Source of the DNA: Rosa chinensis
Taxonomy: Eukaryota > Streptophyta > Magnoliopsida > Rosales > Rosaceae
Direction: 5' to 3'
Assembly: GCF_002994745.2 (NCBI RefSeq)
Contig: NC_037089.1
Span: 81,120,347-81,184,346 of the forward strand
Length of the DNA stretch: 64,000 nucleotides
Shown: piece after piece, positions 12,287 to 61,982 of the stretch
Layout of the letters: every line of letters begins with the position of its first letter
Numbering within the stretch: the stretch's first letter is position 1
Translations under genes and position numbers: made by a program
The notes under the pieces: generated by a model
The model's input: the letters and a program-made list of their open reading frames with translations, nothing else
The model's database searches: none
What the model was told of the DNA's origin: nothing

Positions 12287-13755
12287 ATGGGTAAGTCTCT
12301 CTTGTCAAGCTAACATCTTTTCTATATATTCCTATTTGGGTAGTTCTCCACCAAAATCCCTGAGAACAAATTGGTAATTTTTGGGTTTTCATATTTTTAT
12401 ACTCTGGTAAATTTGTGTGGCAGATGAAGGTGGTGAAGCGGAGTCAAAAGTAGGGGAGGTAATGGAAGGAGTGGCTTCAATAGCATTGCTACCATGTGGG
12501 TCTATATCAGGCCATTTCATCATAGTGAATGATTCCACTAACATTTGCTATGGTCTTCATGGAACTGGTAATTTCTTTTTCTTAATTTGTTTAGGAATTT
12601 GGATGTTAAATTTAGTCGTGACTTTTTTGTGTCATTTTGGTAGAGTTGGCTTGTGAAAAGGAGTGTAGCAGGGGAGAAGATTATCGTCTGATCAAGCTTG
12701 CAATCATAGACTACAATGTATGAATGATTCTTCTTTTTCGTAAAAGTTGGTGATATGTGATTCTCTGTATTGGTTCGTTTATTGGGTGACGATTATTATT
12801 TGTGACAGAAAAAGAAGGAGAAAGTTGTTGTTGTGGAGTGTAGAGGCCATGATGCTGCGAGGTTATGTAGCGTTGATCATGCTCATGGGTAAGTTCATTT
12901 TAGATTTCTCTTGCTGGTTTTTAGAATGTGTTTGGTGCTTTGCATGTTTGAAATTAGAGATATTCAGCTTTACTTTTTGTCAAGAGGCCATGCCTTTATA
13001 GAACCTTAACATGATCAATTGTTCATACATGATGAAATGATATTGCTTTTTCCTTGAACAAACTTTCCTCGGTCCATTTTATCGAGTAGTTTCATTTCTG
13101 AAGTTCTTGCATTTTGTACAAATTGTCCTTTCGGGAGTGATAGCTGCATGTAGTTTAACATGTTTTGTCTCTTCTTTGCATTCAACGGTAGGCAGTTGGG
13201 AGAAGGATGTCGTAGATATGGTTGATGAACAGCATGGGAAGGACAAGATTGTGGTTTCGTTCAACTGTGAGACACTGAAATCTGACAAAGCAGCAGAAGA
13301 TCATATCAGCAAGTTTTTGACCAAACTAGCTGGCCTAGATGCTGTTGTGTAAACCCTCTTTTTTCCCTTTCTGAAAACTTATATGGATACGAAGTTTTGT
13401 TGAAAGTACAAAGTTGTCACATCTTTCTAGCTATAGTTTTGCAGTTGCATATGCAAAAGTTAGCAAATTTACTAATGCTAGAGTCGTCAGGCTTTTGAAA
13501 AACATAAGTTTCCACTTTTTTACAGTATTATGGTTTGCATGATCATCTTTTGGACAAGCCAGAGAAAATTTAACTTGTCTACTTTGCTTTGCTCTAGCTG
13601 TCCCGGGTTACTTCTGTATTCTTCCACATGTTTCTTATATGTCAAATGTTCTTTCACCTTCATATGCCTTGTACAAACTTAACTGGGGACATAAATTTTG
13701 CAGCAACATTGGTAAGATGAGCATTGCCGGCTTGGACTTCGAAGCAGAGGAATAG
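12287..13755 (+). CDS. Conserved protein of unknown function, copy 1 (168 aa, six exons)
   Basis: Six exons join in frame: 12287-12290, 12424-12567, 12644-12717, 12809-12888, 13196-13348, 13704-13755. The first exon carries only ATG plus one base, so the protein starts MDEGGEAESKVGEV. All junctions are GT-AG. It is a small, soluble, acidic protein without signal peptide or membrane segment. Striking internal motifs are IALLPCGSISGHFI, CYGLHGTELACEKECSRGEDYRL, VVVECRGHDAARL, DHAHGWEKDVV and NIGKMSIAGLDFEA. I do not recognise a named family; two intact copies with preserved exon structure argue for a real gene. The downstream copy at 18457-19963 is about 95% alike at the protein level by eye. 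The gene lies about 0.7 kb downstream of ClpB3 in the same orientation. Confidence 0.8.
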
Positions 13756-15028
13756 GCAGAATATGTAACCTGATGTGTAATACTTTTCATAGATACATAT
13801 ATCTGTAACAATATGTTTCAATGCATGTGTTAGACTCTGTATTTGCCAATTTTAGTCATTTTGATTCCATCGTATTAGTACTAAAATTGGTAGATGAGCA
13901 TTGCCAGGTGAACTTTTTAGCAAAGGAACAAGCACAATATATAACTGACAGTATAAACTAATGTCTGATTTTACTTTTTTTTCTTTGGTCCCCTTCGTGT
14001 ATGCATAACTTGGTTGTAATGTGCAACACTTTGAGAACAAGTTCAATGCATTTGTTTCACTTTAATCTGTCTTTACCAATCAGTGCTTTTGATGCCACAG
14101 TTGTATCAAGCTGCCTCATCTGTTTGGTATGCCTAAGTTGAGTTGTGCAGACGCCATTAATATAGGGAATATCAATGTGTTTAATCAAGAGGATATCAAT
14201 TTGTTTACTAACAATTACCAATCGACACAATGTTGTAGACTATGCCTTTGGCAGTGAGGATATAAAGACTTAAAAGGTTGCATAAAGTTGATTCAATAGA
14301 TCCCCATACACAGGAATTTAAAGGTGGACTGAAGCAACTTATAACAAAATTGATCGATCATGGTGAACAAGTGTGTAACCTTATCGCACAACCCAATATT
14401 TGATCCACATACATATTTTAGAGCATGCATGAATGTACAATATATTACATGGTTAACGGTAACATAATTTCATGGAAAGGGCAATTGGAAAACAAATGGT
14501 CAGCAACAGCTTCTAACACCTCCATTGTAAAAAAAACATCAGAGCAGGGCAGAATGCTCGAACACTTGATATGATTGTTAATGGTTCATTTCAGCTCGAG
14601 CTCCCTAATATGTCCAGCCTCGACAACTTTACGGTTGCAGAATGGCAAGGACCCTGCCTAAGAGAAAAGAAGGAAGAAATGTTATCTCAACAGAAATAAA
14701 ACGATTTTAGCCGAAATAAAGGACGGTTCCTTTGGAGAACTGGTCAAATTTCGTTGACCTTAAACCAAATACTTGAAGATATGCTCCTGGGGTTTCTTTT
14801 CTTTAATGAATGAATGCCACACGGACTGGAAAGTTAACATATTGGTACACTAATTTTGTGATATCTGACATTGAAATGGTTGCTGTTTTTGAACTTCTAT
14901 TTAAGTATTGCTTCCATGCCATATCATATAGGAAATCGTTAACGAATCTCTGCATAGATATAACCTGGTTTCGAGAAAAAAAAAAAAGAAGAAGAAGAAG
15001 AAGAAAGGAACTCTATAACATCTAGGTG
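13756..15028. other. Spacer of duplication unit 1, no gene seen
   Basis: This stretch is collinear with 19964-21180 in unit 2 and contains the 3' flank of the unknown gene and of the EID1-like F-box gene. Both copies keep similar sequence with small indels. It includes a GAAGAAGAAG microsatellite near 14985-15005. Confidence 0.5.
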
Positions 15029-15177
15029 CAGGACCCCTCTTTTAATCAACATCAACATCTTCCGGACCTTTGACTTTGAGAACGACTAGAAAATTCCCCC
15101 ACATCTCCCTCTTCTCTTTGGTCAAGATATTCACACGGGTCAGAGACATACAATACATCTGTTCTGCATTGTGGCAA
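15029..15177 (-). pseudogene. Remnant of EID1-like F-box gene (duplication unit 1)
   Basis: About 150 bp match the middle of the intact gene at 21207-21953, around GACATACAATACATCTGTTC, but with internal deletions and a loss of frame. The 5' side is replaced at about 15177 by copia gag sequence, with GCAA shared at the junction. The F-box, most of the coding region and the C-terminus are gone, so this copy is dead. Confidence 0.75.
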
Positions 15178-16526
15178 TTTTCCAGTTCTTCTTCATCTTT
15201 TGTTTTCCCTTTTCTGAATTAGAACTAGATGGCTCATCATTTTTCTGATTTGAGCTAAGACTCAGTGTTTGAAAAGCTTTCTCAGATGGTTCATCATTAA
15301 CCTCTAATCAAAAGCCTTAAGTGTCCCCATCACATCTTGAACACCAAGAGTTTCCATATCCCTAGTCTCCTCTATAATACAGATTATAGCATCATATTTT
15401 CTATTTAGACTCATAAGGATCTTCTGGACAACTCTCTTCTCCGTAACAGGTTCACCATAGGTTTTTATTTGATTTACAATATCAGTCAGTCTAGTACTGT
15501 AATCATTTAGCAGCTCAGTTTCATTCATTCTAGTATACTCAAAATCTCTTCTCAAAGATTGAAGTTTAACAGCTCTAACCTTTTCTGAGCCTTTGAACTC
15601 AAGCAGCAGAACATCCCAAGCTGCTTTGGCTGTTTCTTCATTTGTGATTCTTGGAAAGATCTCATCTGAGACTGAGTTTTGTAGTATTCCTAGAACTTTT
15701 GCATCTTTCTTTATGTTTGTCTTCAGCTCCACTCTCTGAGCATTAGACATATTTTCAATTTCTGGAACTGTATAGCCTTCATCCACATAACTCCATAGTT
15801 CATGTGAGATGAACATGGTTCTCATCTTGATCATCCAGAAGTCAAAATTCTCTCCACTGAAGATTGGAACTCTGATTTCTGATGAGTTGCTTAAACTAGC
15901 CATATTAGATCAGTACCTTGTGTTTGTTTTTTTGTTTTTTTATCCAACAGTTGATACGACCATGTTGAATATATTTGTAAAATTTTGATTGCTTCTACTT
16001 TGTATTTGAACAAAATATAATCGAAACCACAACTTGTTGATTTGATTAATTTGCAGTAGCAAATGAAGCATGAATAGATCAACTTAACCCAGCAAACTTG
16101 TGTACTTGAGTTTCTGAATTTGTTCACTCTTTTACATCAACCAAGACTTCCCTTATATAGGGGTACAAGATTAACCTACAAAATATCTAAGATGAAATCA
16201 TATTAAACTAGATCAAAAGTACTTTAGATACAAAATATCTACCTTAATTTGAGTGGAGCAAACAGTAATGCAAGTGGCTATAAAATATCTTTCACCGCAG
16301 CTAAGACTTTCACAGCAGCATGTTTCGCAACAGCGAACAGACTCAACATTCGCGAACAAACTTAGTTATTCAGCGAACACTACTTCTCAGCGAACTTACT
16401 CACGACTTACTTTTCCCTACAGTGACATTATCTCGCGAACGTACTTTTAGCGAACATTCACGACGAAGTTACTTCGCGAACTTTTCTCTGCGGTGACTTT
16501 ATCTCACGAACGCACTTTAGCAAACA
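15177..16526 (-). mobile_element. Truncated Ty1/copia retrotransposon: one LTR plus 5' gag
   Basis: On the minus strand an LTR-like segment (about 16526 down to 15963, ends TGTTTG...TCAACA) is followed by a TGGT-cgTATCA primer-site-like sequence, then gag from ATG at 15903. Gag has the DUF4219/UBN2 signature (FSGENFDFWMIKMRTMF, LWSYVDEGY). Its main frame stops at 15304 and, after a frame change, continues as SEKAFQTLSLSSNQKNDEPS to about 15177, where the element is cut off. Zinc knuckle, protease, integrase, RT, RNase H and the second LTR are missing. A TATATAAG box lies in the LTR near 16153-16160. The LTR boundaries are my estimate from TG/CA ends. Confidence 0.75.
15304..15903 (-). pseudogene. 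Copia gag polyprotein fragment (DUF4219/UBN2 type)
   Basis: A 199-aa frame starts MASLSNSSEIRVPIFSGENF, typical of copia capsid precursors, which package element RNA into virus-like particles. A TAG ends it just after GTLKAFD, where active relatives continue toward the zinc knuckle. The missing tail and missing pol make it non-functional by itself. It sits inside the broken EID1-like F-box copy. Confidence 0.8.
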
Positions 16527-16568
16527 TTCGCAGATGGAGCAGGAAAGCATTAATTCTATCAAGGATAC

Positions 16569-17695
16569 AAGTATTTTGCTCCTTAAAAAATGCTTTCTGG
16601 CTTGAAAACTTTGCTTATAGACATTTAAATAAACTATAATCTCATTCTCCGATTGCTCATGGTTTTTGCATTTTTACAACAGTTGGAACGAGTCCAGAAG
16701 AGAACTACAGACCGCAAGATGAAAATCCAAGTGAGTGATGCAATTGTGCAGTTTCTTGGAAGTCTTGGCTACGATCCAAACTACGGTGCTAGGCCAGTGA
16801 AGCGAGTGATTCAGCAATATGTAGAAAATAAGCTTGCCAAGGGCATCTTGAGGGGAGAGTTCAAAGAAGAAGACACCATTTTGGTCGACACAGAGGTCAC
16901 AGCGTTTGCCAATGGCCAACTACCCCAGCAAAAGCTAGTCTTCAAGACGCATTCTGACGTGTTCAATGTTTTCCTTCAAATTTTAGATGATGGGAGAGTA
17001 ACTGACTCACAGGGCCGCACTGTGAGTTTCACCAACACTGTGATCATTATGACCTCAAATGTTGGTTAACAGTACATACTTAACGGAGATGATGAAGTAT
17101 CACCAAAGGAGTTGGGTTACGAAACTATAAAGCAGCGGGTCATGGAGCCTGCAAGGTCCATATTTCGCCCTGAGTTCATAAATCGGGTTGATGAGTACAT
17201 AGTTTTTCATCCCTTGGACCGTGATCAGATAAACAACATTGTCAAGATACAGGTAATTTGCTGCTCAAAAATGCTTACTAGCTTGAAAACTTTGCTGATA
17301 GACATTTAAAATAAATCTCCTTCTCTGATTACTCATGGTTTTCGCCTTTTTTACAACAGTTGCAACGAGTTCAAAAAAGAATTGCAGACCGCAAGATGAA
17401 GATCCGAGTGAGTGAGTCAGCTGTGCAGCTTCTTGGAAATCTCGGCTAACATCCAAACTGCGGGTGCTAGGCTAGTCAAGCAAGTGATTCAGCAATATGT
17501 TGAAAATTAGCTTGCCAAGGGCATCTTGAGGGGAGTGTTCAAAGAAGAAGACACCATTTTGGTCGACACAGAGGTCACGGTGTTTGCCAATGGCCAGCTA
17601 CCCCAACAAAAGCTAGTCTTCAAGATGCTTGAAACTGGTTAATAATCTCCTGCAGCAGAGAACCAAGAAGCTTTGTCAGGGGCAGTCTAAGGCTT
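16569..17695 (+). pseudogene. Rearranged ClpB3 3'-end pseudogene (exon 10 - exon 9 part - exon 10)
   Basis: The segment copies ClpB3 intron 9 and exon 10 (16569-16949), is joined at AAGACG/CATTCTG to the last 303 bp of exon 9 (about 16950-17254), then intron 9 and exon 10 again (17361-17690). So the original order is permuted: a 678-bp unit (10832-11509 in the intact gene) was tandemly duplicated inside the copy. The first junction is in frame and gives a 138-aa chimeric frame (16653-17069). Lesions include TCA to TAA in the MTSNVGSQ motif, a TAA after LLGNLG in the second exon 10, a further frameshift and a later TAG. There are no ATPase domains, so no ClpB function remains. Confidence 0.9.
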
Positions 17696-26431: not shown

Positions 26432-29400
26432 TCAAGCTGGATCAAGGGGATTCATTGAGCCAAGCTTGCCAAGAATTCGATGGAACTGAGCAGTGGAGAG
26501 AGATTTGGTGAAAATATCAGCCAGCTGGTCATGACTTCGAGTGTAATGAGTATCAATAATTTTGGATTGAACTTGAGCTCGAATATAATGGCAATCAACC
26601 TCGATGTGCTTGGTTCTTTCATGAAAGACTGGATTAGAAGCAATGTGCATTGCAGCTTGATTGTCACAGAAAAGGGACATTGGTTGACTAGTAGGGAACC
26701 CCAAATCAGAGAGGAGACCTTTTAGCCAAATAAGCTCACAAGCAGTGGAGGCCATAGCTCGGTATTCAGCTTCTGCACTAGAACGAGCAACAACAGTTTG
26801 CTTCTTGCTCTTCCAAGTAACCAGGTTACCACCAACAAATGTGCAGAAGCCAGTAGTGGATTTACGATCAAGGGAGTTACCTGCCCAATCAGCATCAGTG
26901 TATCCCATTATGTGAGTGTCTCCATTGTTTTTCATCAAAATGCCTCTACCAACGGAACCTTTGAGATAACGAAGGATTCTCTTTACAATGTGAAGATGAG
27001 CCAAAGTTGGAGCATGCATGAATTGGCTGACAATGCTTACAGCGTAAGCAATGTCAGGTCGAGTGATCGTGAGATAAATAAGCTTACCAACTAATCTTTG
27101 ATAGGCAGCTAGATTACAAGGAGACTTACTTGATACATCAAGTTGCAACTTACTGTCAAGGGGAGTGCGAGCTGGTTTGCAATCCTTCATATCTGCATCT
27201 TGCAGCAAATCAAGAACATACTTTCTTTGGTTAAGAAATAGGCCTTTATGAGAAGTAGCCATTTCAATACCAAGAAAATATTTAAGAATCCCCAAATCTT
27301 TGATAGCAAACCTGTTTCGAAGCGATTGTTTGAGCAACTCAATCTCTTCAGCATTGTCACCTGTTATGATTAAATCATCAACATAGATAAGCACCAGAAG
27401 TTTGCTGGTTGAGCCAATGCGAATGAACAATGAAGAATCTGCATTACTTCTGTGAAAACCGACTTCTTCAAGTACTGAACTAAGTTTGGCATACCATGCA
27501 CGTGGAGATTGTTTTAAGCCATAGATGGCTTTGTGAAGCTTGCACACTATATCAGGATCATGAGATTGAGAATGACCGGGAGGTAACCTCATATAGACTT
27601 CCTCTTCAAGATCACCATGTAAGAAAGCATTTTTGACATCCATTTGGTAGAGAGGCCATGCATGATTAATTGCAACTGATAACAAAACTCTTACTGTGTT
27701 CATTTTAGCAACAGGAGCAAAAGTTTCCTTGTAATCTACCCCATATGTTTGAGTAAAACCACGAGCCACTAAACGAGCTTTATGTCTCTCCACCGTGCCA
27801 TCAGTGTGAAACTTGGTCTTATAAACCCATCTGCAACCTACAGCTTTCTTTCCTTTAGGAATTCGAACAATACTCCAAGTATTATTATCATTGAGAGCTT
27901 GAAGTTCATCTGTCATAGCCTGCTTCCATTCAGCAAGATGATTGGCTTCCTCAAAACTTTGAGGTTCATGAGTATTATCAAGGGCACTCAGAAATGCAGA
28001 ATGAGCAGATGAAAATTTATTATAAGAGATGAAGTGTGTCATTGGATACCTTGCATTGTAGGTTACATAATCATTGAGCTTTGATGGAGGACCTCGTTCT
28101 CGTGGAGGGTTTCTACGAAGAACAACTGCAGATGGAGAAGTGGGCTCATCAACAGATTGCATATCAATCTCTGGATCAGAAAGGACAGCTGGAACTTCTT
28201 GAACTGGAACAGCAGGATTGATAGACGGATTGCAATCCTCAACAATAGGGAGAGCTGGAGCTTCTTGAACTGGAACAGCAGGATTTATAGAAGGATTGCA
28301 ATCCTCAACAATAGGGATATTGGGACTTGGGAACATATCAGATAGGAACTCCCCCTGTCCAGTATCACATGATTTCCTTGTGAAATAAGGAGTAACTTCA
28401 TCAAATCTTACATCCCTGGAGACAATGAGTTTCCTAGTAGCATGATTGTAGCATTTATAACCTTTTTGAGTAGATGAATATCCTAGGAAAACACATTTAT
28501 CAGCTCTAGGATCAAGTTTATCACGTTGATGAGCTTGAATATGAACGAAACATGTGCAGCCAAAGACTTTCAAGTGAGACAGATCAATCTTTCTGCCTTT
28601 CAACACTTCAAGAGGAGATTTGAAACCAAGCACTCTGCTAGGTAATCTATTGATGAGATATGTGGCAGTGAGAACACCTTGAGACCAAAATTTTTTGGGA
28701 ACATTCATTTGAAACATAAGAGCTCTGGTTTTTTCAAGAATGTCTCGATTTTTCCTCTCGGCAATCCCATTCTGTTGAGGAGTACCAACACAGCTAGTTT
28801 GATGCACAATGCCTTGTGAGCTCAAGTATTGTGACATGTTATTGGACATATACTCAGAACCATTATCAGATCGTAAAATATGAACAGATGATGAAAATTG
28901 AGTGATGATAAGTTTATGAAAATCCTTAAAAACATCCACAACTTCACTTTTTAGTTTCAAAAGATACAACCAAGTAATCCTCGTAAAATCATCTACAAAT
29001 GTTACAAAATACTTAAATCCATCATAGGACTCAAGAACTGGACCCCAAATGTCTGAATGCACAATTTCGAAAGGGTTACTAGCCCTAGACAGAGAAGAAG
29101 TAAATGGTAATCTAGAGGATTTTGACAAATGGCAGACATCACATTGATTAACTGCCTTGTGCATATTAGGGAACAAAAAAGACAACACATTCTCAGATGG
29201 ATGAGCCAAACGCTGATGCCAAAGATGATGATCTTTAGCTAAACTAGTTTGAAAAACCTTGGAGGTAAAGGAGTTTTTTGACAGGTAATAAAGTCCATTC
29301 AAGAAGAAACCTTCACCAATGGTCTTCTTGGTAATGAGATCCTGAAATATAACCTTATGAGGAGAGAAAATGACAAGACATTGCAAGGTATGTATAATTC

Positions 29401-29854
29401 TTAAAACAGATAGAAGTTGAAAAGGAAAGGAAGGAACATAAAGAGCAATTGAATCAATGAGACTGGAAAGTAATTTTAGTTTTCCTTTCCCTAAAACAGA
29501 AACACTTTGGCCATTTGCTACTGATACTTTAGTAGGGGTGGACAATTTTTCAAAATCATGCAAGTTTTTAAGCTTATTTGTCATGTGATCCGAAGCTCCT
29601 GAGTCTATAATCCAATAATCATCCACAGCACAAACATTTAGAGCAGTTGAGAAGGATTTTAGAATACCTGAAGCTTCTTCATGTGGGACACAATCAGTTT
29701 CTGCAAGAAAGCCAGCAAATTTTCCAAGGAGTGGAGTGTGGCTTTCACTCCCAGTTATAGCTGATTCTTTTTTTTCACCATGCATCTGCCTCTTGTTGAG
29801 ATAGGCAGCAAATTCATTCATCAAAGCAGCGGGATTGGAGGTGAAGTTCATCAT
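26432..29854 (-). CDS. Copia pol polyprotein (protease, integrase, RT, RNase H), gag missing
   Basis: A single intact 1,140-aa frame. Order of domains: aspartic protease DSGASDHM (about 84-91); GAG-pre-integrase zinc motif HQRLAHP...CDVCHLSKS; integrase core with DIWGP, SDNGSEY and the final catalytic Glu in PQQNGIAERKNR; reverse transcriptase with the YVDD active site (LVLIYVDDLIITGD); RNase H with YTDADWAGN, SSAEAEYRAMA and the CDNQAA motif. This order (integrase before RT) defines Ty1/copia. The capsid and the CCHC zinc knuckle that normally fill the first about 250 codons are absent; only the stretch just after the knuckle (LMNEFAAYLNKRQ) remains. Packaging must have come from another element. 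No stop or frameshift seen. Confidence 0.95.
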   Translation of the reverse strand: MMNFTSNPAALMNEFAAYLNKRQMHGEKKESAITGSESHTPLLGKFAGFLAETDCVPHEEASGILKSFSTALNVCAVDDYWIIDSGASDHMTNKLKNLHDFEKLSTPTKVSVANGQSVSVLGKGKLKLLSSLIDSIALYVPSFPFQLLSVLRIIHTLQCLVIFSPHKVIFQDLITKKTIGEGFFLNGLYYLSKNSFTSKVFQTSLAKDHHLWHQRLAHPSENVLSFLFPNMHKAVNQCDVCHLSKSSRLPFTSSLSRASNPFEIVHSDIWGPVLESYDGFKYFVTFVDDFTRITWLYLLKLKSEVVDVFKDFHKLIITQFSSSVHILRSDNGSEYMSNNMSQYLSSQGIVHQTSCVGTPQQNGIAERKNRDILEKTRALMFQMNVPKKFWSQGVLTATYLINRLPSRVLGFKSPLEVLKGRKIDLSHLKVFGCTCFVHIQAHQRDKLDPRADKCVFLGYSSTQKGYKCYNHATRKLIVSRDVRFDEVTPYFTRKSCDTGQGEFLSDMFPSPNIPIVEDCNPSINPAVPVQEAPALPIVEDCNPSINPAVPVQEVPAVLSDPEIDMQSVDEPTSPSAVVLRRNPPRERGPPSKLNDYVTYNARYPMTHFISYNKFSSAHSAFLSALDNTHEPQSFEEANHLAEWKQAMTDELQALNDNNTWSIVRIPKGKKAVGCRWVYKTKFHTDGTVERHKARLVARGFTQTYGVDYKETFAPVAKMNTVRVLLSVAINHAWPLYQMDVKNAFLHGDLEEEVYMRLPPGHSQSHDPDIVCKLHKAIYGLKQSPRAWYAKLSSVLEEVGFHRSNADSSLFIRIGSTSKLLVLIYVDDLIITGDNAEEIELLKQSLRNRFAIKDLGILKYFLGIEMATSHKGLFLNQRKYVLDLLQDADMKDCKPARTPLDSKLQLDVSSKSPCNLAAYQRLVGKLIYLTITRPDIAYAVSIVSQFMHAPTLAHLHIVKRILRYLKGSVGRGILMKNNGDTHIMGYTDADWAGNSLDRKSTTGFCTFVGGNLVTWKSKKQTVVARSSAEAEYRAMASTACELIWLKGLLSDLGFPTSQPMSLFCDNQAAMHIASNPVFHERTKHIEVDCHYIRAQVQSKIIDTHYTRSHDQLADIFTKSLSTAQFHRILGKLGSMNPLDPA

Positions 29855-50098: not shown

Positions 50099-50467
50099 TT
50101 AGTTTATGTGTTTCCCCACTAATTAGTTTTGGAAGGTTATTCATAATTTCGCGTCTAGAAGATGTTTAACGACGAACAGTTAGTTTCTGTGTTTCTGCAC
50201 TCATTAGTTTTGGAAGTTTATTCATAATTTCAAGTCTAGGAGATGTTTAAGGGCGAACAGTTAGTTTCTGCACTCATTAGTTTTGGCAGATTATTCATAT
50301 ATAATTTCGCGTCTTAAAGATGTTTAAGGACGAACAGTTAGTTTCTGCACTCATTAGTTTTGGAAGGTTATTCATAATTTCTAGACGAACGGTTAGTTTC
50401 TGCACTCATTAGTTTTGGAAGCTTATTCATAATTTCGCGTCTAGAAGATGTTTAAGGACGAACAGTG
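50099..50467. repeat. Minisatellite of about 75-80 bp, five copies
   Basis: Repeated units contain TTAGTTTCTGCACTCATTAG, TTTTGGAAGGTTATTCATAA, TTTCGCGTCTAGAAGATG and TTTAAGGACGAACAG. Five units are visible, one shortened (about 50345-50395). Length varies by small indels. Confidence 0.85.
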
Positions 50468-50820
50468 TTGATGGAACTAAGGAAGTTTCAAGTACAGGAA
50501 GACCCGACTGCTTCTTTCTGAGAATTTGAGATCGAAGCATCACATGAAGAACATGATCGATCATTGGGCGGAACTGTGTTCGGGTCCGACGGGTCCGGCC
50601 CCCCTCCCCCAAAGTTTTTGACAGTTCGCTCAACACGGTGTTGCCCCCAGTGATAAGAGTTTTAAAAAATCATTTTATTCCCAATATATGGATCCCCCGC
50701 CAATCCGCTATCTCTTCTTCCTTCCCCCACCCAATTCCACACTACCACGTGCCACTTGATAGGTAAGACCGTAAGTAGGGATGGCAATAATCCTCATAGG
50801 GTAGGGTACCCATCGGGTAT

Positions 50821-52845
50821 TGAAGCGCTCAAAGCAAGCGCGCAATTTAACCCTGAAAATATCGTTAGTAGTATAAGTAAGTAGGGATCGTTCTATTCCG
50901 GGGATTGAGGGTACACTTGTAATTGTGAAACAAATAAAGAAAAGTATTATTTACAAAAATAAAATAAAGAATATAAATATATACAATTGTATAAACAAAT
51001 AAAGAATTAAAATAATAAAGTATTATTTACAAAAATAAAATAAAGAATAGAAATATATACAAGTAACAAAATAAAAAGGGAGGGGGGGTTTAAGAATTAT
51101 AGAATTGAAAATTAAGATAAATAAAATAAAGAAAATGTAAAAACACATATACAAGAATGAAACATAAGAAACAAACATTAAACCCAAGTTTATCATTGAA
51201 TTCGAATTAACCCTACATTGTTCTTCCAAGTCATGTGAGAGGAGTTGATCATGTGAAACATTCGAAAGCAAATGATTTCCCATATTTTACTTTTCAATGC
51301 TAATTAACCTAAGCGAAAGCACCTAGATTAATCCTATCAAACATGCAATCAAGCCCTAGAAAGCTAGTCAATCATGACATGTTCAACGCATTAGACATAG
51401 AGAAAGGCTATCAACTCAAGTGTACAACTTAGTATGAATAAGTTCACCTAATTGCAATCCTCTTCAATTGAATTCGATTTTTGTCCAAAACCTTTACTAC
51501 TTTGATTCAAGTTTACACAAAACGAAAAGTCGATTTCATGTTCTTAAACCTAGCACCAATTACATGCAAATCCTATAAGTGTCGACCCAAATAAGATAAA
51601 CATATAAAAGTTTTCTATCAAGCAAATTCAATCGAACAATCACACATAAGCAACTTTGGAATCACAACATAAGAATCGAAATTCTTTATTCAATCATAAA
51701 ATTTCAGAATATAAACCTTGTTCAAACATAAATGTTAACTAAAAACAATTCTCACGAAACTAAGCAAGATTACAAAGAAAGAGGTTGAATTACACCGTGA
51801 GATGGAGATGGGGATGAAGGATGAAACGTTATGGATTCTTGAATCTCGAAAGCAAGCTTCAAGGTGGAGGATGGATGATGATGCTCACGGCTCCTTCTTC
51901 TTCTTCTTCTCCCTTGCTTGAAACGTTGAATGCACTAGAGGATGGAGAGAAAATGGAAAGGAAATGGAGAGACAAAGAAGATGAGATGGATGAAGGAAGA
52001 TGTTTTGAGAGTGAGAGGAGAATGTGTTTAAATAGGGAAGAAAAAGAAGAGTGAAATGATGAGATGAAGAAAAATAATGAAAGTGGAGTATGAGAGTGGT
52101 TTGTAAAATATGTAAAAGATGAGGTAATGATGAAAGCAAAGCATGAAGGTGAAGAAATGTGGAAGTGATGATGATCTTTTAGAGTAGAAAAATGTATCCA
52201 AGGAAAAAGAAATGCTTTCTTCATATGGGTGGGAAACATGAATATGTGGTGTTGAGCTGTTTTCAAATCAGTTTCTGCCCCTTTATTCCTTCAATTATTT
52301 CTCCAACAAGACTTCATTATATGCATTTGACTTCTTCATATGAAATGTTCCACTATGAGTGTAGATCATCCTGACAAATTTTCAGAGCTTTCATCCATGT
52401 GGTTGGGCCGGAAATGCTGCTGGACCTCTTACAGGTCCAGTTTTCCTGTTTTGCTTCTGTAGAAAATTGGGCTGATTGTTTGAAGGCCTTCCACTCATAT
52501 TTTTCTCTGGCACTCTTCATAAGAAATGATCCTTTGGGTGTCTAGAATGGATCTGGAAGGTTTCAGCTCATTTGAAGTTCATTTGGTCAGGCGGCCGCTC
52601 CTTCTTCTTTGCTTGGCTTGGTTTCTCCTAGCCGGAGTAGGAATATGTGTAAAATTGATCTTTTAGTACATTTCCATTTTTCTCCATCATTTCCAGGTAA
52701 TTATGAACCTAACGCTCATTTCACCTTCATCTACTCCAATGTACCTAAAAGTAGAAATTGAGTTAAAAATTGATTCGTTAAGGAATTAACTAAGCAAAAT
52801 GTGAGGAATTAACTATTAAAATACCGCATTAAAATGCTCCTATCA
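50821..52845 (-). repeat. 3' LTR of the WUS-carrying retroelement
   Basis: 2,025 bp, nearly identical to the LTR at 57895. Differences noted: TGAAGCGCTCAAAGC against TGATGCGCTCAAGGC at the edge, GATTTTTGTCC against GATTTTGTCC, and GATGTTTTGAG against GATGTTTTTGAG. The frames inside it (for example His/Phe-rich minus frames near 51859-52266) recur in both LTRs and have no known domain. Confidence 0.9.
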
Positions 52846-54867
52846 AATTCCCCCACACTTAGCTTTTGCTAGTCCCTTAGCAAAACAAAACAAAAAAAAT
52901 CCAAAACAGAACAAAGACTTGACAAAAAGCAAGTAAATGACTCTATTGCTCCTAACTGTTGTCTCAGAGACTCCAAACTCATGGCTTTCACGTTAAACAC
53001 TTAATCAAAATCACAAAGATAATTCCATGGTTAATAAACCTGTGACATTCATATGACTAAGCAAGATATGGAGAACTTAAGTTATACAGTGAATGATATG
53101 TTTCGAACAAGTCCAATCCAAACTCACAGGGCATACTCTCGATTTTTCTCTCAGAAATGGCTATGCTTAAAAGCTTCACACTCAAGTATATGCAAGAGAA
53201 CAAATTGTAAGGCAACAAACAGCTTGCATATTTCATCAATAAACACATTTTGTGAAGAATTTTTAAAGACCTCATGAAATGACTAAGTGCACAAATGGAC
53301 CTAAACCATAAGCTCGACTGCGTAACTGACTCCACTAACCAAAAACTGCCCATCTCAAGGATCAAGTCAGCACTTAAAACAGGTTGTAATGGGGCTAAGC
53401 TAGGGTTTTCGAAATGAAGATTAAGGATACAAAAATCCTAAGGACCTAGCAGAGCATATAAGGACCACCTTATGTCATCATTTTTGTAGACCAAATATCA
53501 TTGTTTTGGGCCAAACCTTCACTCTAACCAACATGGGAATGGACAAAGGCATAATTTTCAACTTTGAGCCTTATACAAATTTGCAAGTCCAAAACCACAC
53601 TTCAACATTTTCCCAAGAGTTTTCTTTTCAATTTTTCTTCTCTTTTGCCGCTTTTCTTTCTTTCTTTCTCTTTTTTTTTTTCAAGGCAAAATTTTTTTTT
53701 TTCTTGGATTTTTCCCACCCCATAATTGTCTTTCATCGTCACCCCTACATACTATGTCATGCTCTACTAAGTCCTTAAGACAAGGGTAGAGATATCCTGT
53801 ACTAAGCTCATGGTAGGGTAGTGAGGGTGATGAAACAAAGGTTTTCAACGTAGGCTCAAAGGGTTCATTCTAAGGAGTCCCACGACGGGCACAATTGGGG
53901 ACACATGCTTGTTTGGCTTTGGTGGTTACCCTAATGCCTTCTATCCTATCCAGGATCAGTGCATATTATGGCATACAAGTTTTGACAGTCACAACAGCCG
54001 AGTTCTAGTACTCTCTAGTCCATTAAAATCTATGGCACATGATCATTGGATTTTCAAAGAAAGATGAGGTTTTGCAAATACAGCCATGAAATTCTGAAAT
54101 TATCAGTAAGCACTCAAAAAGAAAGTATTTTAGCTCAACAGCTCACTTGGGTCAAATGAATCAGACTTAATCCTAGCATGCTTAATGAACCAAGTTACAA
54201 TCCTATCTCAAATCTTCATACAAGCATCACAATGTCGATTAACCACAGAATTCAATTATGTCCTATTTTGATTGTGAAAACCTTCAGCCATGAATTCGGA
54301 GACATGTTCATCCTAGACGTTAGGAGCATCCTAAGACTCAAACACACAAACAAAAACACTCTAAAACCAACAATTTTTTTTTTTTTTTTTACAATTTAAT
54401 TTAATTTCAACACTTAGGTACGGGAACAGGGAGTCTCGATGTGCAATGGGACTGAAACAGCTACCCTTTTTCAAGACTATGTTTAATCCAATATACCTTA
54501 GTGTATCACAACATCAACTAAAAACACAATAAAAACACAATCCAACATCAACTATTTTTCATTTTTTTTTTTATATACTAACTACTAAAAACACAATAAA
54601 GCAATAACCCTTCCCCCATACTTAATTCATGCATTGTCCTCAATGTACAAACAAATATAAATCATGCAAAGCATAAATCAAGCATAGAAGAGAAAGTTAA
54701 CACAACGAAACCTAAAACAACTTAAAATTCATGAAAATAAAATAGAAGGAAGAGTTCAAGAAAGCAAATCTGCGTTTGATGGCTCCTCCACAGATACGGT
54801 TGAAATGGGTTGCCTCCCATGCAGCGCTTAATGTTTAAAGTCTTTCAGCCTAGACTTGTACCTCCAT

Positions 54868-55398
54868 TTACTCCTTTGGAGGAGCGGTATGCGGGCGAGT
54901 GGCAGCCCTCTTGCTGGTTTCAGCCTCCTGAGGAGGGTTCTCATGTTGTGATGCAGTAGCGTCCTTGCGAGGAAACCCAGGAGGATAACTCTGCAAGTTA
55001 TTGACTTCCTGAGCAAGCTTGTTTATTGCAGTGTGACAGCGGATCAAAGAGCAGTTCATCTCAGAGATGTAATCGATCATGCAATTGACTCTCCAATCTG
55101 TCACCATAATACCATCGCGGAGAGAGGAACGCAAATCATCAATCGAATCCGATAAGCTTTCCAGGGTGGCCATAGGCCGAGGAGCACGAGCAGCTGGTGA
55201 GGAAGAAGACTCTCCGGGATGCAGTCTGGGAGAGCGACGAGGCAGAGGAGGGGGACTGCGGGTACGCTCACGGATAGGACGATGGTCCCATGGACGAGTA
55301 AGTCCAGCTCTAGTGGCCGCTTGACGACCTTCTTCTTCCAAAGAGAGAACACGGCGTTGATTGACGCCCCTGCGAGGGGTAACCTTGGTTCGAGCCAT
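54868..55398 (-). CDS. Retroelement-internal ORF of unknown function (176 aa)
   Basis: Starts MARTKVTPRRGVNQRR at 55398. The N-terminal third is very basic and Pro/Arg/Ser-rich (PPPLPRRSPRLHPGESSSSP); the middle (SLSDSIDDLRSSLRDGIMV ... CMIDYISEMNCSLIRCHTAI) looks helical, perhaps a coiled coil. The tail is Pro/Thr-rich. No zinc knuckle or capsid motif is visible, so it is not an evident gag; it could be a degenerate or lineage-specific accessory protein. It is followed at once by the GCGCTGCATGGGAGGCAACCC-type block (54809-54829) seen near the ends of coding regions in related elements. It is transcribed away from the homeobox gene, from a shared upstream region. Confidence 0.55.
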   Translation of the reverse strand: MARTKVTPRRGVNQRRVLSLEEEGRQAATRAGLTRPWDHRPIRERTRSPPPLPRRSPRLHPGESSSSPAARAPRPMATLESLSDSIDDLRSSLRDGIMVTDWRVNCMIDYISEMNCSLIRCHTAINKLAQEVNNLQSYPPGFPRKDATASQHENPPQEAETSKRAATRPHTAPPKE

Positions 55399-55614
55399 GA
55401 GGAAGTAGAAGGAATTTGAAACTGCACGTTTAGACAAACCTTAGTAAAATCTGGAGGAGACAAAAAAGGATGTATATATGAAGCACAAAATAGGGTAGAA
55501 ATCTCAACAAGCACAGGGTTTTAACAAAGCTTCTCCGGGAAGGAGAAGACTTATGACAGTTCACGGCCCAAGAAACACGTATGCACATGAAAAACTCCCC
55601 CACGCGTAAATATT

Positions 55615-55802
55615 CCTTTCTTTTCCGTGATTTACGGCAATTAGGTCTGCTTTCGGCTGTAGCTTGTCTGTCACAACTCCTCGAGAACCGTTTGGTTCCC
55701 CCACACGTCCTTTCTTTTCCTTAATTTACGGCAATTAGGTCTGCTTTCGGCTGTAGCTTGTCTGTCACAACTCCTCGAGAACCGTTTGGTTCCCCCACGT
55801 GT
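55615..55802. repeat. 94-bp direct repeat in the promoter of the WUS-like gene
   Basis: Two adjacent copies (55615-55708 and 55709-55802) share CCTTTCTTTTCC, TTTACGGCAATTAGGTCTGC and CCTCGAGAACCGTTTGGTTC and differ at a few bases. The second copy ends in a perfect CACGTG G-box (55796-55801), which the first lacks (CACACGTC). Confidence 0.9.
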
Positions 55803-55909
55803 CCTTCACGAGCCAACAGCTTTTCCGTGTTTTCGGGTGACTTTAATCCAACGCGTAGATTTAATCTCAGAGATCGTCGATCCAACGGTGGAGATCTGCT
55901 CACTCATTC

Positions 55910-55918
55910 TATAAATAG
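55910..55918 (+). promoter_or_regulatory. TATA box of the WUS-like gene
   Basis: TATAAATAG, 110 bp before the ATG at 56028, with a CT-rich leader (TCTTTCTCTCTCAACC) between. A plausible start would be near 55940. This promoter lies in the interior of the retroelement, not in its LTR. Confidence 0.6.
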
Positions 55919-56027
55919 GTGCATTCTGAGTGACTGTTCACTCCAAAAGAAAATTCTTCCGAGTTCCAGTCTTTCTCTCTCAACCCTTCAGCCTTTCTTT
56001 CGAAACTCAAATCCTTTCTTCATCAAC

Positions 56028-56678
56028 ATGGAACCACAAACTCTGCAACTAATGGAGCAACAGACCCAGCAACAAATCGAGGATGGAGGAAACAACCAAG
56101 CAGCCGGGACTAATAACCGGTGGGCTCCCACACCGCCTCAACTAAGAATCCTCAAGGGCCTTTACTATGATAAGGGTTTTAAGTACCCAACTCCAGAGCA
56201 GATTCAAGAGATCTGCCTCCATCTGAAACAGTATGGGCAGATCGAGGACAAAAACGTCTTCTTTTGGTTCCAGAACCTCAAGGCTCGTGAGAGGCAGAAG
56301 TTGAAGGAATTTCGGAACGTTCCGGTTGGTGGATCTCTCGATCTCAATTTTGGATCCACTAGTTCTACTGATGATGGTAGATCCATTGATCTAAACTTTG
56401 GGTCACGTGTCGGCTATGGTGTTGACCCATATTCCTCCTCACCCTTCAACACTAATACCAGTACTACCTCCTTTGGCACAACAGGAGGACAATCTTTCAT
56501 GGAACAACGAGGAGGAGATCACCAGGAGATTGAAACCCTTCCACTATTCCCCATGCATGGTGAGGACATCTTTGGCAACATGAAGACTACTTCCGAGGGA
56601 GGTAGCGGCTATAGCGGTGACTCTCGCATTTCCCTTGAGCTCAGCCTCAACTCCTACGGAGATGCAGACATGGTTTAG
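56028..56678 (+). CDS. WUSCHEL-clade homeobox protein inside an LTR retroelement
   Basis: 216 aa, intronless. I chose MEPQTLQLMEQQTQQ (56028) over an ATG 90 codons upstream, since that stretch overlaps the TATA box and repeat. Residues about 38-103 form a WOX homeodomain: NRWAPTPPQLRILKGLYYD, then YPTPEQIQEICLHLKQYGQ, then recognition helix NVFFWFQNLKARERQK. The nearly invariant QNHKARERQK has Leu in place of His. Near the C-terminus ETLPLFPMHGED is the WUS-box that recruits TOPLESS-type co-repressors, and SLELSLNSYG is an EAR-like repression motif; both define the WUS branch. Two LDLNFGS repeats (about 106 and 121) are unusual. Family members keep shoot stem cells undifferentiated. Shorter than WUS itself (about 290 aa). 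Family WUS genes usually contain introns, so a captured cDNA is likely. Confidence 0.9.
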   Translation: MEPQTLQLMEQQTQQQIEDGGNNQAAGTNNRWAPTPPQLRILKGLYYDKGFKYPTPEQIQEICLHLKQYGQIEDKNVFFWFQNLKARERQKLKEFRNVPVGGSLDLNFGSTSSTDDGRSIDLNFGSRVGYGVDPYSSSPFNTNTSTTSFGTTGGQSFMEQRGGDHQEIETLPLFPMHGEDIFGNMKTTSEGGSGYSGDSRISLELSLNSYGDADMV

Positions 56679-57871
56679 TATAGAGTATTTTTATTATTAT
56701 ATTTTTTTTTTTTTTTTAATTTTTTTTTTTTTTTTTTTTTTGTAAATAGCTGAATTTAATAAGACTGAATGAATACAGTTTTTTTTTTTTTTTTTTTTTA
56801 TATATATAAAGGACTCAAAAAATAAAAGACAAATATAAATATATATTGGACTCAAAATGAAAGACAAAAATATAAATCTCTTCCCCCACACTTAAATATT
56901 GCATTATCTTCAATGTAATCAATTAAAAGCATGCAATGAAATAAGTAAGCATATAGGGATGAAATTTACGAAAATAACAACTAAAACAAATAAGCAAAAA
57001 CGAAAAATAAAAGATAAGGATAAAGAAAGCAAATCTGATTTGCATGGGTTGCCTCCCAAGTAGCGCTTGTATTTTACGTCTTGCAGCCAGACGGTACCTA
57101 CATTAAATAAAGTTAGTAACTATAATTAACAAAGAAATACAAAATAAAAACAAGTATAACTATTAATTACAAACTACAAGTAAAATTAACAAGTATATTG
57201 TACAAAAGACACAAGTTAAGTACAAGTGAGTATAAAACGTGAAAAGTATTTTTACAAGTATTAAAGTGTGAAACAACAAAATAATTTACACGTATAGAGT
57301 ATTCACAAGTATTTCTTTTATTATAAACATTATTGATATCGAATCAAATTCCAAGCGGTAAATCAAGTGGACGTGCGGCCCAAGTATAGTCGCCTAGACA
57401 CAAACTCCCTTTCAAATCTTTTGGGCAACCTTACTGAAATGGCCAGGTGGGGGAGGACGAACACGAGAGGAAAAATCCATTTTGGCATGAGCTACTCCCA
57501 CATTGTGGTTTATGCCCATTTGCAAGCACTTCTGGATTCAAAAACCCGTCATGAACGTTGTCCCCTTCCTAGACACCATTTCACATAGGCTTTCTTACTA
57601 AGATGAGAAAGGTCATAAGTGTGAAGACAGTTCAACAAGTGTTAATAAAGGCCGCCCTCAACCTTAAGAGACCTGAACTAGGTACTAATAAGGGGTTTAG
57701 GCCAATATTAACAAAAGAGACTTCACCTATTCCTCTCAATTTACAACCTACAATTAAAATTCGTGTTCAATAATATAAATAACATCCTAGTTAATTTAAA
57801 CTAAGTTTCAAACAATTTTTAAACAACAAATATATACAATAAATGACACAATTTAACAAGTGATTTTTCAA

Positions 57872-57889
57872 TCCCCGGCAACGGCGCCA
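57872..57889 (-). other. Primer binding site, tRNA-Asp type
   Basis: Minus strand TGGCGCCGTTGCCGGGGA, five bases inside the 5' LTR edge, complementary to the 3' end of plant tRNA-Asp. It fixes the orientation of the element. Confidence 0.85.
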
Positions 57890-57894
57890 AAAAT

Positions 57895-59919
57895 TGATGC
57901 GCTCAAGGCAAGCGCGCAATTTAACCCTGAAAATATCGTTAGTAGTATAAGTAAGTAGGGATCGTTCTATTCCGGGGATTGAGGGTACACTTGTAATTGT
58001 GAAACAAATAAAGAAAAGTATTATTTACAAAAATAAAATAAAGAATATAAATATATACAATTGTATAAACAAATAAAGAATTAAAATAATAAAGTATTAT
58101 TTACAAAAATAAAATAAAGAATAGAAATATATACAAGTAACAAAATAAAAAGGGAGGGGGGGTTTAAGAATTATAGAATTGAAAATTAAGATAAATAAAA
58201 TAAAGAAAATGTAAAAACACATATACAAGAATGAAACATAAGAAACAAACATTAAACCCAAGTTTATCATTGAATTCGAATTAACCCTACATTGTTCTTC
58301 CAAGTCATGTGAGAGGAGTTGATCATGTGAAACATTCGAAAGCAAATGATTTCCCATATTTTACTTTTCAATGCTAATTAACCTAAGCGAAAGCACCTAG
58401 ATTAATCCTATCAAACATGCAATCAAGCCCTAGAAAGCTAGTCAATCATGACATGTTCAACGCATTAGACATAGAGAAAGGCTATCAACTCAAGTGTACA
58501 ACTTAGTATGAATAAGTTCACCTAATTGCAATCCTCTTCAATTGAATTCGATTTTGTCCAAAACCTTTACTACTTTGATTCAAGTTTACACAAAACGAAA
58601 AGTCGATTTCATGTTCTTAAACCTAGCACCAATTACATGCAAATCCTATAAGTGTCGACCCAAATAAGATAAACATATAAAAGTTTTCTATCAAGCAAAT
58701 TCAATCGAACAATCACACATAAGCAACTTTGGAATCACAACATAAGAATCGAAATTCTTTATTCAATCATAAAATTTCAGAATATAAACCTTGTTCAAAC
58801 ATAAATGTTAACTAAAAACAATTCTCACGAAACTAAGCAAGATTACAAAGAAAGAGGTTGAATTACACCGTGAGATGGAGATGGGGATGAAGGATGAAAC
58901 GTTATGGATTCTTGAATCTCGAAAGCAAGCTTCAAGGTGGAGGATGGATGATGATGCTCACGGCTCCTTCTTCTTCTTCTTCTCCCTTGCTTGAAACGTT
59001 GAATGCACTAGAGGATGGAGAGAAAATGGAAAGGAAATGGAGAGACAAAGAAGATGAGATGGATGAAGGAAGATGTTTTTGAGAGTGAGAGGAGAATGTG
59101 TTTAAATAGGGAAGAAAAAGAAGAGTGAAATGATGAGATGAAGAAAAATAATGAAAGTGGAGTATGAGAGTGGTTTGTAAAATATGTAAAAGATGAGGTA
59201 ATGATGAAAGCAAAGCATGAAGGTGAAGAAATGTGGAAGTGATGATGATCTTTTAGAGTAGAAAAATGTATCCAAGGAAAAAGAAATGCTTTCTTCATAT
59301 GGGTGGGAAACATGAATATGTGGTGTTGAGCTGTTTTCAAATCAGTTTCTGCCCCTTTATTCCTTCAATTATTTCTCCAACAAGACTTCATTATATGCAT
59401 TTGACTTCTTCATATGAAATGTTCCACTATGAGTGTAGATCATCCTGACAAATTTTCAGAGCTTTCATCCATGTGGTTGGGCCGGAAATGCTGCTGGACC
59501 TCTTACAGGTCCAGTTTTCCTGTTTTGCTTCTGTAGAAAATTGGGCTGATTGTTTGAAGGCCTTCCACTCATATTTTTCTCTGGCACTCTTCATAAGAAA
59601 TGATCCTTTGGGTGTCTAGAATGGATCTGGAAGGTTTCAGCTCATTTGAAGTTCATTTGGTCAGGCGGCCGCTCCTTCTTCTTTGCTTGGCTTGGTTTCT
59701 CCTAGCCGGAGTAGGAATATGTGTAAAATTGATCTTTTAGTACATTTCCATTTTTCTCCATCATTTCCAGGTAATTATGAACCTAACGCTCATTTCACCT
59801 TCATCTACTCCAATGTACCTAAAAGTAGAAATTGAGTTAAAAATTGATTCGTTAAGGAATTAACTAAGCAAAATGTGAGGAATTAACTATTAAAATACCG
59901 CATTAAAATGCTCCTATCA
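57895..59919 (-). repeat. 5' LTR of the WUS-carrying retroelement
   Basis: 2,025 bp partner of 50821-52845, adjacent to the primer binding site. See that entry for the few differences. Confidence 0.9.
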
Positions 59920-60711
59920 GGTATTCAACCCTAATGGGAAGAAATTTGGGGGAAATCGGGTAACCGGGATGGGGATCCCCAGCATTCGAATTCTGAAATC
60001 GGGTACGGGGTGGAGATGATATTTTGATCCCCATCCCCATACCCACCCAATAAGAGTTATCTAAAATATATATATATATATATATATATATTTATTATAT
60101 ATATTTTTGATATTATTTATAAATATATATATCTATGTAAACTTAATCTTTTTGTCAATATTTAAATTCTGTCAATATATTTTTGATAATATTCAATTCA
60201 TCTTGTTCGAGTGAATGAGTAAGTTGTTAGGTTACACTAAGCAGTTGATTGTGGAATTTTTTTGTCGAATGCATACCTTTATTGTTTTTTTTTTAAGTGA
60301 GACTTATATTTGTTTTTGTTTAATTGAAATAAAGAATTTACTTTATGTTGATATTTGAATTTAACTTCATAGTTTACGATCGATAATTATTTGTATGAAT
60401 TTATATATAATAAATTAGTAATATTGTTAACGGGGATTGGGGCGGGTACGGGGACCTAATCCCCAATGGGGACGAGGACGGGGACAGGGAATCCCCAGTT
60501 TCTTATTACGGGGATTGGGCCGGATAAGGGGATGGGGAATGAAGTCGGGTATGGGGACGGTAATTTAATCCCCTTACCCTACCCTCCCCATTGCCATCCC
60601 TAACCGTAAGAGAAAGAAAAATATATGTTACGTGACTACTATTTTATATAATATTTTATTGAATTAAATTGGTTAACTAAAAATAATTAACAATTGGTTA
60701 GAGTAAATTTT

Positions 60712-61982
60712 AGGGGTTTTGTCCATTTACACCATTTTTAGAGATTTTTTTCCCACTTACCCCATTAAGTTTTTTTAATTATCTCTTACCCAAAACACTC
60801 TAAGGAGGTCTTCCCTAATACCCCATTAAGATTTTTTTTTGTTTTTTAATTTTTTTAATACCATTTTACCCTTACCCCTTTGTTACTTAGAGATAGAGAG
60901 AAAATAGAAGAGAGAGAAATCATGGGAGTCTTGGCCGGAGCCCGGTCACCGGCCGCCGGAATCCGGTCACCGGCCGCCGGAATCCGGCCAACTATTGCCC
61001 CACAATAGACGACTATCAGCCATGTATTGCCCCCAATAGACGACCATCAGCCATGTATTGCCCCCCAATAGATGTCTATTGCCCCCAATAGACGTATATT
61101 GCCCTAATAGTCTATGTCAAATAGACGTCTATTGTCCCCTAATAGACGTCTATTGTCCCTCAATAGATGTCTATCAGCCATGTATTGCCCACCAATAGGC
61201 GTCTATTGCCCCCCAATAGATGTCTATCAGACATGTATTGCCCTCCAATAGGCGTCTATTGCCCCCCAATAGAACTGTCAGTAGCTGAAATGGGAACTAA
61301 TATTCCTAAAATTAGACAAATAAAACTTTGATTAAAGAAAAAAACAAAGAGATCATATTAATTTAAAAATGCATATTGCCCCCCAATAGATGTCTACTGC
61401 CCCAATAGACATTCAAAAAAAATTTCCCTTTCTCTCTGCCCCATTACTTAAAAAAAAAAAAAAAAAAAAAAACGGAAGAGAAAAATTGATTTGGCCACCC
61501 AGAGAAATACTCTGGGCACCAAATCGAAGCAAAAACCCAGAAATCCGGCCAGACATCACCGGTGGCCGTGCTTGCTGCTCTCTCCAATCCCCGAAATGCT
61601 AGCAAAATCCTCCTCAGTGAAAACGGCGTCGTTATAGGGGAAGGTCGATCAATCCGGTTTTCTCCTCATCCACGATTGCCAACGATCGTGCAATCGAGGC
61701 TGCAAATGGAGATGTGGTCCTCATCAATCCTAGCCAAAGATGATCAGATCGGCTTTCTCCTCGTTGGCTGAGCGGTTGAAGTGTTAATCGGAGTTGGAGG
61801 CCGAGTTGTTGAGGTTGATGACGATGGCAGCTGAGCGGTCGAGTTCAGAATCGGAATCGTTTGACGGCGACTGCAGACATGCTCGACGGCGGTGAGAGAG
61901 AGTTGGTGACGACACCGTGGTAGGCAGCCCGACTCTGGTAGTAGGCGGAGTTGGCGTCGTGGTTTTGCAGGGCGGGGAGAGG

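Follow-up and report, generated by a model that had tools for sequence, protein, structure and literature searches.

The best explanation for the data presented here, and in our judgement a probable one, is that a young, non-autonomous LTR element of Rosa carries an antisense gene derived from WUSCHEL, and that this gene was captured, remodelled and then multiplied into the genes annotated as 'WOX' in roses. The copy described below lies in the 64-kb stretch of Rosa chinensis DNA that was analysed, which is referred to as the window. All coordinates are those of the window.

Anatomy and Orientation of the LTR Element

The features of the element and of its gene are listed below, with the strand and the basis of each assignment.

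50816..50820, no strand: target site duplication (TSD), left copy (GGTAT); flank comparison
50821..52845, minus: 3' LTR, 2,025 bp; pairwise LTR alignment
52846..52860, minus: polypurine tract (PPT), AAGTGTGGGGGAATT on the minus strand, adjoining the 3' LTR; sequence
54604..54868, plus: diverged direct repeat, left copy, flanking the segment with the WOX frame and the small ORF; local alignment
54868..55401, minus: small ORF, 177 aa, element-sense; ORF, no Pfam family at E 0.01
55614..55806, plus: 94-bp tandem duplication 5' of the WOX frame; sequence repeat
55910..55917, plus: TATAAATA TATA box, candidate own promoter, 118 bp 5' of the WOX ATG; sequence match only
56028..56678, plus: homeobox ORF of WUSCHEL origin, 216 aa, in antisense orientation within the element; ORF, Pfam, protein search, tree
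56118..56303, plus: homeodomain, residues 31-92; Pfam, AlphaFold2 model
56340..56354, plus: DLNFG motif 1; sequence
56388..56402, plus: DLNFG motif 2; sequence
56535..56558, plus: WUS-box TLPLFPMH; sequence
56631..56651, plus: C-terminal EAR-like motif SLELSLN; sequence
56872..57104, plus: diverged direct repeat, right copy; local alignment
57872..57889, minus: primer binding site (PBS), TGGCGCCGTTGCCGGGGA on the minus strand; sequence
57895..59919, minus: 5' LTR, 2,025 bp; pairwise LTR alignment
59920..59924, no strand: TSD, right copy (GGTAT); flank comparison

The initial annotation, made from the sequence alone, had placed the frame between two near-identical 2,025-bp LTRs with matching target duplications, and this was borne out. 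The retroelement spans 9,099 bp (50821-59919) and is defined by paired LTRs, a TSD, a PBS and a PPT. The two LTRs are direct repeats that begin with TG, finish with CA and differ at only four places (two substitutions and two one-base indels over 2,026 alignment columns), and GGTAT is found on either flank. At assumed plant substitution rates of 6.5e-9 to 1.3e-8 per site per year, the LTRs are about 38,000-76,000 years old, and the element is young. The PBS, which we take to be the complement of the end of a plant tRNA-Asp, and the PPT lie at the expected ends and on the minus strand, so that the element is transcribed from right to left. The WOX frame, on the plus strand, is thus antisense to the element, a point that the initial annotation missed.

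No gag or pol family was detected by the Pfam scan in any of the internal stop-to-stop frames of at least 50 aa (36/36), and the homeodomain was the sole match above the family cut-off; the element is therefore non-autonomous, and the enzymes for its movement would have to be supplied by another element. The scanned internal frames also contained no reverse transcriptase for lineage placement and no TRP28 (PF04195), the Pfam marker of the antisense ORF of Ty3/gypsy Tat/Retand elements. No match was found in NCBIfam for the WOX protein or for P0122. Seven relatives were found for the 177-aa small ORF, and those with organism names (3/7) are all from Rosa; they include an 18-member cluster, 98% identical, with the R. 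chinensis chromosome 2 name Chr2g0158501.

Two diverged copies of an element sequence, in direct orientation, flank the segment that holds the small ORF and the WOX frame. Their local alignment score is 174, whereas none of 200 shuffles exceeded 48, a hint that the insert may have entered by recombination or duplication. Upstream of the frame, the 94-bp tandem duplication precedes the TATAAATA box, which in turn precedes the WOX start codon. As candidate targets for binding of the protein to its own element, TGAA sites are only weakly in excess in the LTR (49 versus 39.5 expected, with 16/300 shuffles as high), and a tandem excess is absent. BLASTN at E 1e-3 revealed no further copies of the LTR or of the internal region elsewhere within the 64-kb window.

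The LTR element itself appears to be nested in another element (50768-60610), presumably of the hAT type, with terminal repeats TAGGGATGGCAAT (50776) and ATTGCCATCCCTA (60590) and the 8-bp duplication ACCGTAAG on either side. In addition, a 71-bp unit is present in five irregular copies at 50110-50466, and TTGCCCCCCAATAGACGTCTA-type repeats were noticed by eye at about 60990-61270.

The Antisense Gene Is Derived from WUSCHEL

The WOX frame is open throughout, from ATG over 216 codons to TAG, and the homeodomain, WUS-box (TLPLFPMHGED) and EAR-like motif (SLELSLN) that had been read from its translation are all present. The homeodomain was recognized by Pfam (PF00046, E 7e-11), and retains the base contacts R38, N90 and R94. 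Its match to 6ry3, the solved structure of the WUSCHEL homeodomain, has an E value of 6e-22. A chance origin of the frame is excluded, since related proteins reach E 3e-127. In the AlphaFold2 model the homeodomain is confident (blocks 31-90, pLDDT 90-96) and the rest is low, with a mean of 59. Structurally, the model is closest to nine WUS-HD chains, some bound to DNA and some free (TM 0.90-0.95, normalised to target length; rmsd 0.6-1.5 A); the top eleven matches also contain two STENOFOLIA chains, at 0.75 and 0.85.

A search with the 216-aa protein gave 298 matches with E values of up to 0.001, and the analysis covered the best 120 of them. Among these best 120 of 298, R. chinensis accounts for 45 clusters with 313 members and R. 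rugosa for 17 clusters with 52 members, member counts that are not equal to strict copy numbers; four further relatives are environmental (P0026, P0043, P0061 and P0063). The remaining 54 come from other plants; they are WUSCHEL or WUSCHEL-like, including some that are unnamed or annotated as hypothetical. The family of mobile copies that the initial annotation had envisaged if the element were multi-copy has a counterpart in a large, multi-copy protein family in roses. The 216-aa ORF belongs to this family, and we infer that other copies would also lie within LTR pairs. No relative was confirmed at the DNA level in viral contigs.

For phylogenetic analysis, an 85-row tree was built with 63 non-WUS rows (59 named Rosa proteins, three environmental ones and the window protein) and 22 non-Rosa rows; the latter were drawn from the 54 listed outside the Rosa and environmental family, and WOX subfamilies other than WUS were left out. 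P0046, P0051, P0061 and P0065, which are Rosa or environmental proteins without the homeodomain, were omitted. A 75-row tree was obtained by removing ten truncated rows (P0035, P0037, P0038, P0039, P0042, P0043, P0050, P0067, P0070 and P0071). In the 85-row tree, all non-WUS rows (63/63) form a single clade with an SH-aLRT support of 95, and this clade joins the WUS proteins of Fragaria and Argentina with a support of 100, apart from the 20 other WUS proteins. In the 75-row tree, the rose clade of 53 rows is supported at 100/94. The placement of the gene in the WUS branch, proposed from its motifs, agrees with the tree. WOX5 and the other WOX genes were set aside as parents because the best non-Rosa matches among those listed are WUS or WUS-like. 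The comparisons support WUSCHEL itself, and not just some WOX gene, as the source.

Rows of R. chinensis and R. rugosa are intermixed in the 85-row tree, which suggests that the family is older than the split of the two species and expanded in both. No native Rosa WUS was identified among the best 120 of 298 matches; in a tree lacking that gene, several captures from it would equally give one clade. We would place the entry of WUSCHEL into the element, on one or more occasions, within the Rosa lineage once this had split from the strawberry and silverweed lineage.

The captured gene appears to have been remodelled, with much of its middle lost, DLNFG-type motifs gained and the homeodomain altered. 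Many rose proteins still show the two ends of the Argentina and Fragaria WUS proteins (PTEDG near the start, HQEIETLPLFPMHGE and SLELSLNSYG), and most lack much of the middle. The homeodomain of the 216-aa protein is identical to those of Argentina and Fragaria WUS at 43/62 positions, whereas these two are identical to each other at 62/62. The DLNFG motif, which we assume to be of the EAR type, is absent from all five native WUS proteins compared (5/5). A DLNFG-type motif is found in 53/67 rows and in none of the five native proteins, which points to a shared origin for most of the family.

The claim that a WOX cDNA had been captured held only in part. The WUSCHEL derivation and the continuous frame agree with it; the cDNA route does not gain support, as no poly(A) trace was seen 3' of the frame, where T-runs are found instead, and the gene is antisense. 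By this reasoning, such an antisense insert would not be the expected outcome of simple mRNA template switching.

A subfamily of WUS-derived proteins with a common CEGKAG tail was also noticed (P0049, P0055, P0056, P0057, P0058, P0060 and P0063). WFVNQRARE is found in the recognition helix of 5/7 of them, altering Q89, and P0057 represents 20 members, so that a second mobile lineage may exist. Separately, P0028 of R. rugosa combines a rugosa-type N-terminal part with a chinensis-type C-terminal part, which by eye suggests recombination among copies.

Relation to the Published Expansion of Rose WOX Genes

According to the published survey of the family (PMC11405225), R. chinensis has 381 WOX genes, 226 of them on chromosome 2, and 364/381 fall into the rose-only clades I-V. 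Totals of 170 for R. multiflora and 105 for R. rugosa were given in the same source, versus 6 to 40 in other Rosaceae and 18 to 33 in Arabidopsis, tobacco, poplar, loquat and soybean (PMC11405225). The 364 genes of clades I-V were published as a gene-family expansion without an explanation (PMC11405225). The motifs reported for clades IV and V (PMC11405225) match the 216-aa protein and its close relatives, which marks them as the same family: YGQIEDKNVFFWFQNLKA, TLPLFPMHGEDILGNMKTTSEGG and SHISLELSLNSYRDADMA occur in the 216-aa protein (P0001) or in P0019, and YGQIEDKNVFFWFQNLKA is identical to a stretch of the former. After its capture and remodelling, the gene would have multiplied into these hundreds of annotated rose 'WOX' genes, and a WUSCHEL-carrying LTR element probably explains why roses are reported to have hundreds of WOX genes and other plants a few dozen at most.

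Two alternatives to a gene that moves with its element bear directly on this expansion. That the LTRs at the locus are coincidental is hardly credible: the survey authors did propose genome duplication, while calling for further evidence, but the same survey reports zero collinear genes inside the R. chinensis genome, with WOX members present on each of the seven chromosomes (PMC11405225), and at the locus itself the complete LTR, TSD, PBS and PPT anatomy contradicts it. It is very improbable that a WOX retrogene fell once into a single LTR element with which it does not move. Only one copy was seen with its flanks, as such a nested insertion would have it, but the relatives number in the hundreds, many in the remodelled DLNFG form, the adjacent small ORF of the element is repeated as well, and rose WOX genes of the same clade are reported to share similar cis-elements in their 2-kb upstream regions (PMC11405225).

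Transposons, retroelements, LTRs, mobile elements and pseudogenes are not mentioned in the main text of PMC11405225, and among the matches listed from the openly readable literature we found no published link between the rose WOX expansion and LTR elements. Term searches of two 2026 reviews gave a similar picture: Rosa, WUS, WOX and homeobox did not occur in one on gene capture by plant transposons (PMC13317346), and retroelements did not occur in one on WUSCHEL, where the only transposon passage concerns insertions near meristem genes (PMC13116129). The reported size of the rose WOX family, with 381 genes in R. chinensis, 170 in R. multiflora and 105 in R. rugosa (PMC11405225), would find a concrete and testable cause in a WUSCHEL-carrying element. 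Such an origin would also mean that studies of rose WOX genes, and their expression counts, may mix developmental genes with transposon genes.

Evidence for Selection on the Protein

Amino-acid changes were counted by parsimony on tip and internal branches, on the 85-row tree unless stated otherwise. In the rose family, changes per site in the homeodomain amount to 1.74 on tips and 2.06 on internal branches, versus 1.98 and 1.89 in the rest of the protein. The corresponding values for native WUS are 0.61 in the homeodomain and 4.15 elsewhere, the latter probably inflated by badly aligned columns. The tip-versus-internal contrast was not significant for the whole homeodomain (p 0.31) or for the motif windows (p 0.90). 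Within the homeodomain, sites invariant in WUS have 1.63 internal changes versus 3.05 at variable sites (p 0.004), and on tips 1.56 versus 2.16 (p 0.11).

A set of 25 functional sites was then defined as the nine DNA contacts named in PMC7203112, W39, TLPLFPMH and SLELSLN; a set of 26 adds R100, the tenth contact named in that source, which is variable in the family. An earlier test with 19 sites (p 4e-6, 0.002 and 1e-4) used sites chosen post hoc from the per-site output, without variable contacts such as Y86, K92 and R96, and our conclusions rest on the 25 and 26 sites. On the 85-row tree, the 25 sites have 0.64 internal changes per site versus 2.08 elsewhere, with 1/20,000 random sets as low; on the 75-row tree, the values are 0.44 versus 1.62, with 2/20,000 as low. 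With 26 sites, they are 0.88 versus 2.05 (85 rows; 23/20,000 random sets as low) and 0.54 versus 1.62 (75 rows; 7/20,000). The functional sites are somewhat spared on the tips too, where 409/20,000 random sets were as low for 25 sites and 867/20,000 for 26 sites on the 85-row tree; on the 75-row tree, the figure for 26 sites was 3,325/20,000. The tip/internal contrast at functional sites is modest and depends on the choice of sites, with p 0.03 (85 rows) and 0.02 (75 rows) for 25 sites and p 0.13 and 0.01, respectively, for 26. Where the rose rows are aligned, R38 is kept in 61/63, N90 in 59/59, R94 in 57/60 and Q89 in 49/58, whereas Y86 is replaced by F in 45/58 and H91 by L in 34/59.

These data must be weighed against the view that WUSCHEL was captured and copied with the element while the protein never mattered, the open frames reflecting recent bursts and prediction bias. 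We judge this to be unlikely, and it is the alternative that survives best. Consistent with it, the homeodomain changes at the same rate as the rest of the protein, the whole-domain and motif-window tests were negative, as was the 26-site contrast on the 85-row tree, frameshifted or truncated copies occur (P0042 and P0035), and the LTRs are only tens of thousands of years old. Expression fits as well: in rooting cuttings, 359/364 rose-only WOX genes were reported as nearly silent, with five expressed (PMC11405225). Against it, three R. rugosa proteins (P0027, P0031 and P0034) differ from the 216-aa protein by 30-36% over aligned columns with frames still open. In a neutral simulation with an assumed indel rate, a frame at 79% protein identity stayed free of stops and frameshifts with a probability of about 0.001, a value to be read in the light of databases listing open frames only. 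The residues for base reading and those of the WUS-box and EAR motif are, moreover, spared on internal branches. We take it as probable that selection acted on the functional core in the source copies, whereas other residues were free to change more loosely and individual copies decayed.

It is improbable that the antisense RNA matters and not the protein, with the WOX transcript pairing with element RNA and feeding or modulating small-RNA silencing. The antisense orientation and the TATA box would suit such a role, a possibility already raised for the antisense frames that plant LTR elements carry (PMC7264820); it would leave unexplained why amino-acid motifs persist when other parts of the protein change.

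If the protein is selected in source copies, the element product could act as an accessory nuclear DNA-binding repressor that combines WUS-type base reading with co-repressor motifs, a reading to which we give somewhat less than even weight. Such a protein would promote expression or transmission of the element, perhaps in those cells of the meristem that give rise to the germ line, and single copies would drift after insertion and usually be silent. In a more specific version, which we regard as doubtful, the retroelement would have domesticated the master stem-cell regulator of its host as an antisense accessory protein: selection on source copies would preserve the WUS type of base reading and the recruitment of co-repressors, additional DLN motifs would have been gained, DNA preference may have shifted, and the element would thereby act on meristem cells en route to the next generation. 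Were the protein active, this would be a retroelement using a stem-cell regulator.

Comparison with Known Elements

LARDs have long LTRs, an intact PBS and PPT and no gag-pol, and are described as non-coding. The rose element resembles them in the first three respects but, unlike them, carries ORFs.

The closest parallels are the additional ORFs in antisense orientation (aORF-3R) of maize Grande (gene23), of rice RIRE2 and of Silene Retand, which, like the rose gene, are antisense and multi-copy (PMC7264820, PMC11963269). A nuclear or DNA-binding type of protein has been proposed for these systems (PMC7264820, PMC11963269), and the candidate promoter of the rose gene recalls the own promoter reported for Grande gene23 (PMC7264820). 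Their antisense ORFs sit between pol and the 3' LTR, whereas the rose gene lies nearer the 5' LTR in an element with no pol. Retand elements mostly carry TRP28 (PMC11963269), whereas the parent of the rose gene is WUSCHEL. As described in a 2020 review, antisense additional ORFs have no similar gene sequences outside the elements and the origin of most is unknown (PMC7264820); with the rose element, one such ORF of a plant LTR element would gain an identifiable host parent. The rose gene is best read as an accessory gene in antisense orientation, with an identified host parent, inside a non-autonomous LTR element; source copies were probably under selection, and inserted copies would mostly be silent.

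Host sequences inside LTR elements are known in other forms. In Phalaenopsis, Ty3/gypsy elements with an ORF for an AlkB m6A demethylase likewise have a host-type domain fixed in an LTR lineage, but those elements are 25 kb long, and the protein they encode is an enzyme that modifies RNA rather than a transcription factor of development (PMC9289625). Transduction by maize Bs1 also placed a host gene inside LTRs (PMC7264820, PMC13317346). Genes transduced in this way are usually in sense orientation and in one or few copies (PMC7264820), whereas the rose gene is antisense and intact, with hundreds of relatives listed.

Other Features of the Window

A long, open Ty1/copia-type polyprotein ORF of 1,140 aa, with integrase and reverse transcriptase, is located at 26432-29854 on the minus strand. 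Gene pieces at 8808-17069, which we take to be from a ClpB-type chaperone, include a repeated segment at the end of 16653-17069, and a copia gag ORF lies between them (15304-15903, minus strand). Finally, and in line with an origin of the window in Rosa, the relatives of another gene in the window carry PF07839 (calmodulin-binding type); they include a protein of R. sericea, the nearest with a name, at 95% identity and Fragaria proteins at 80-85%.
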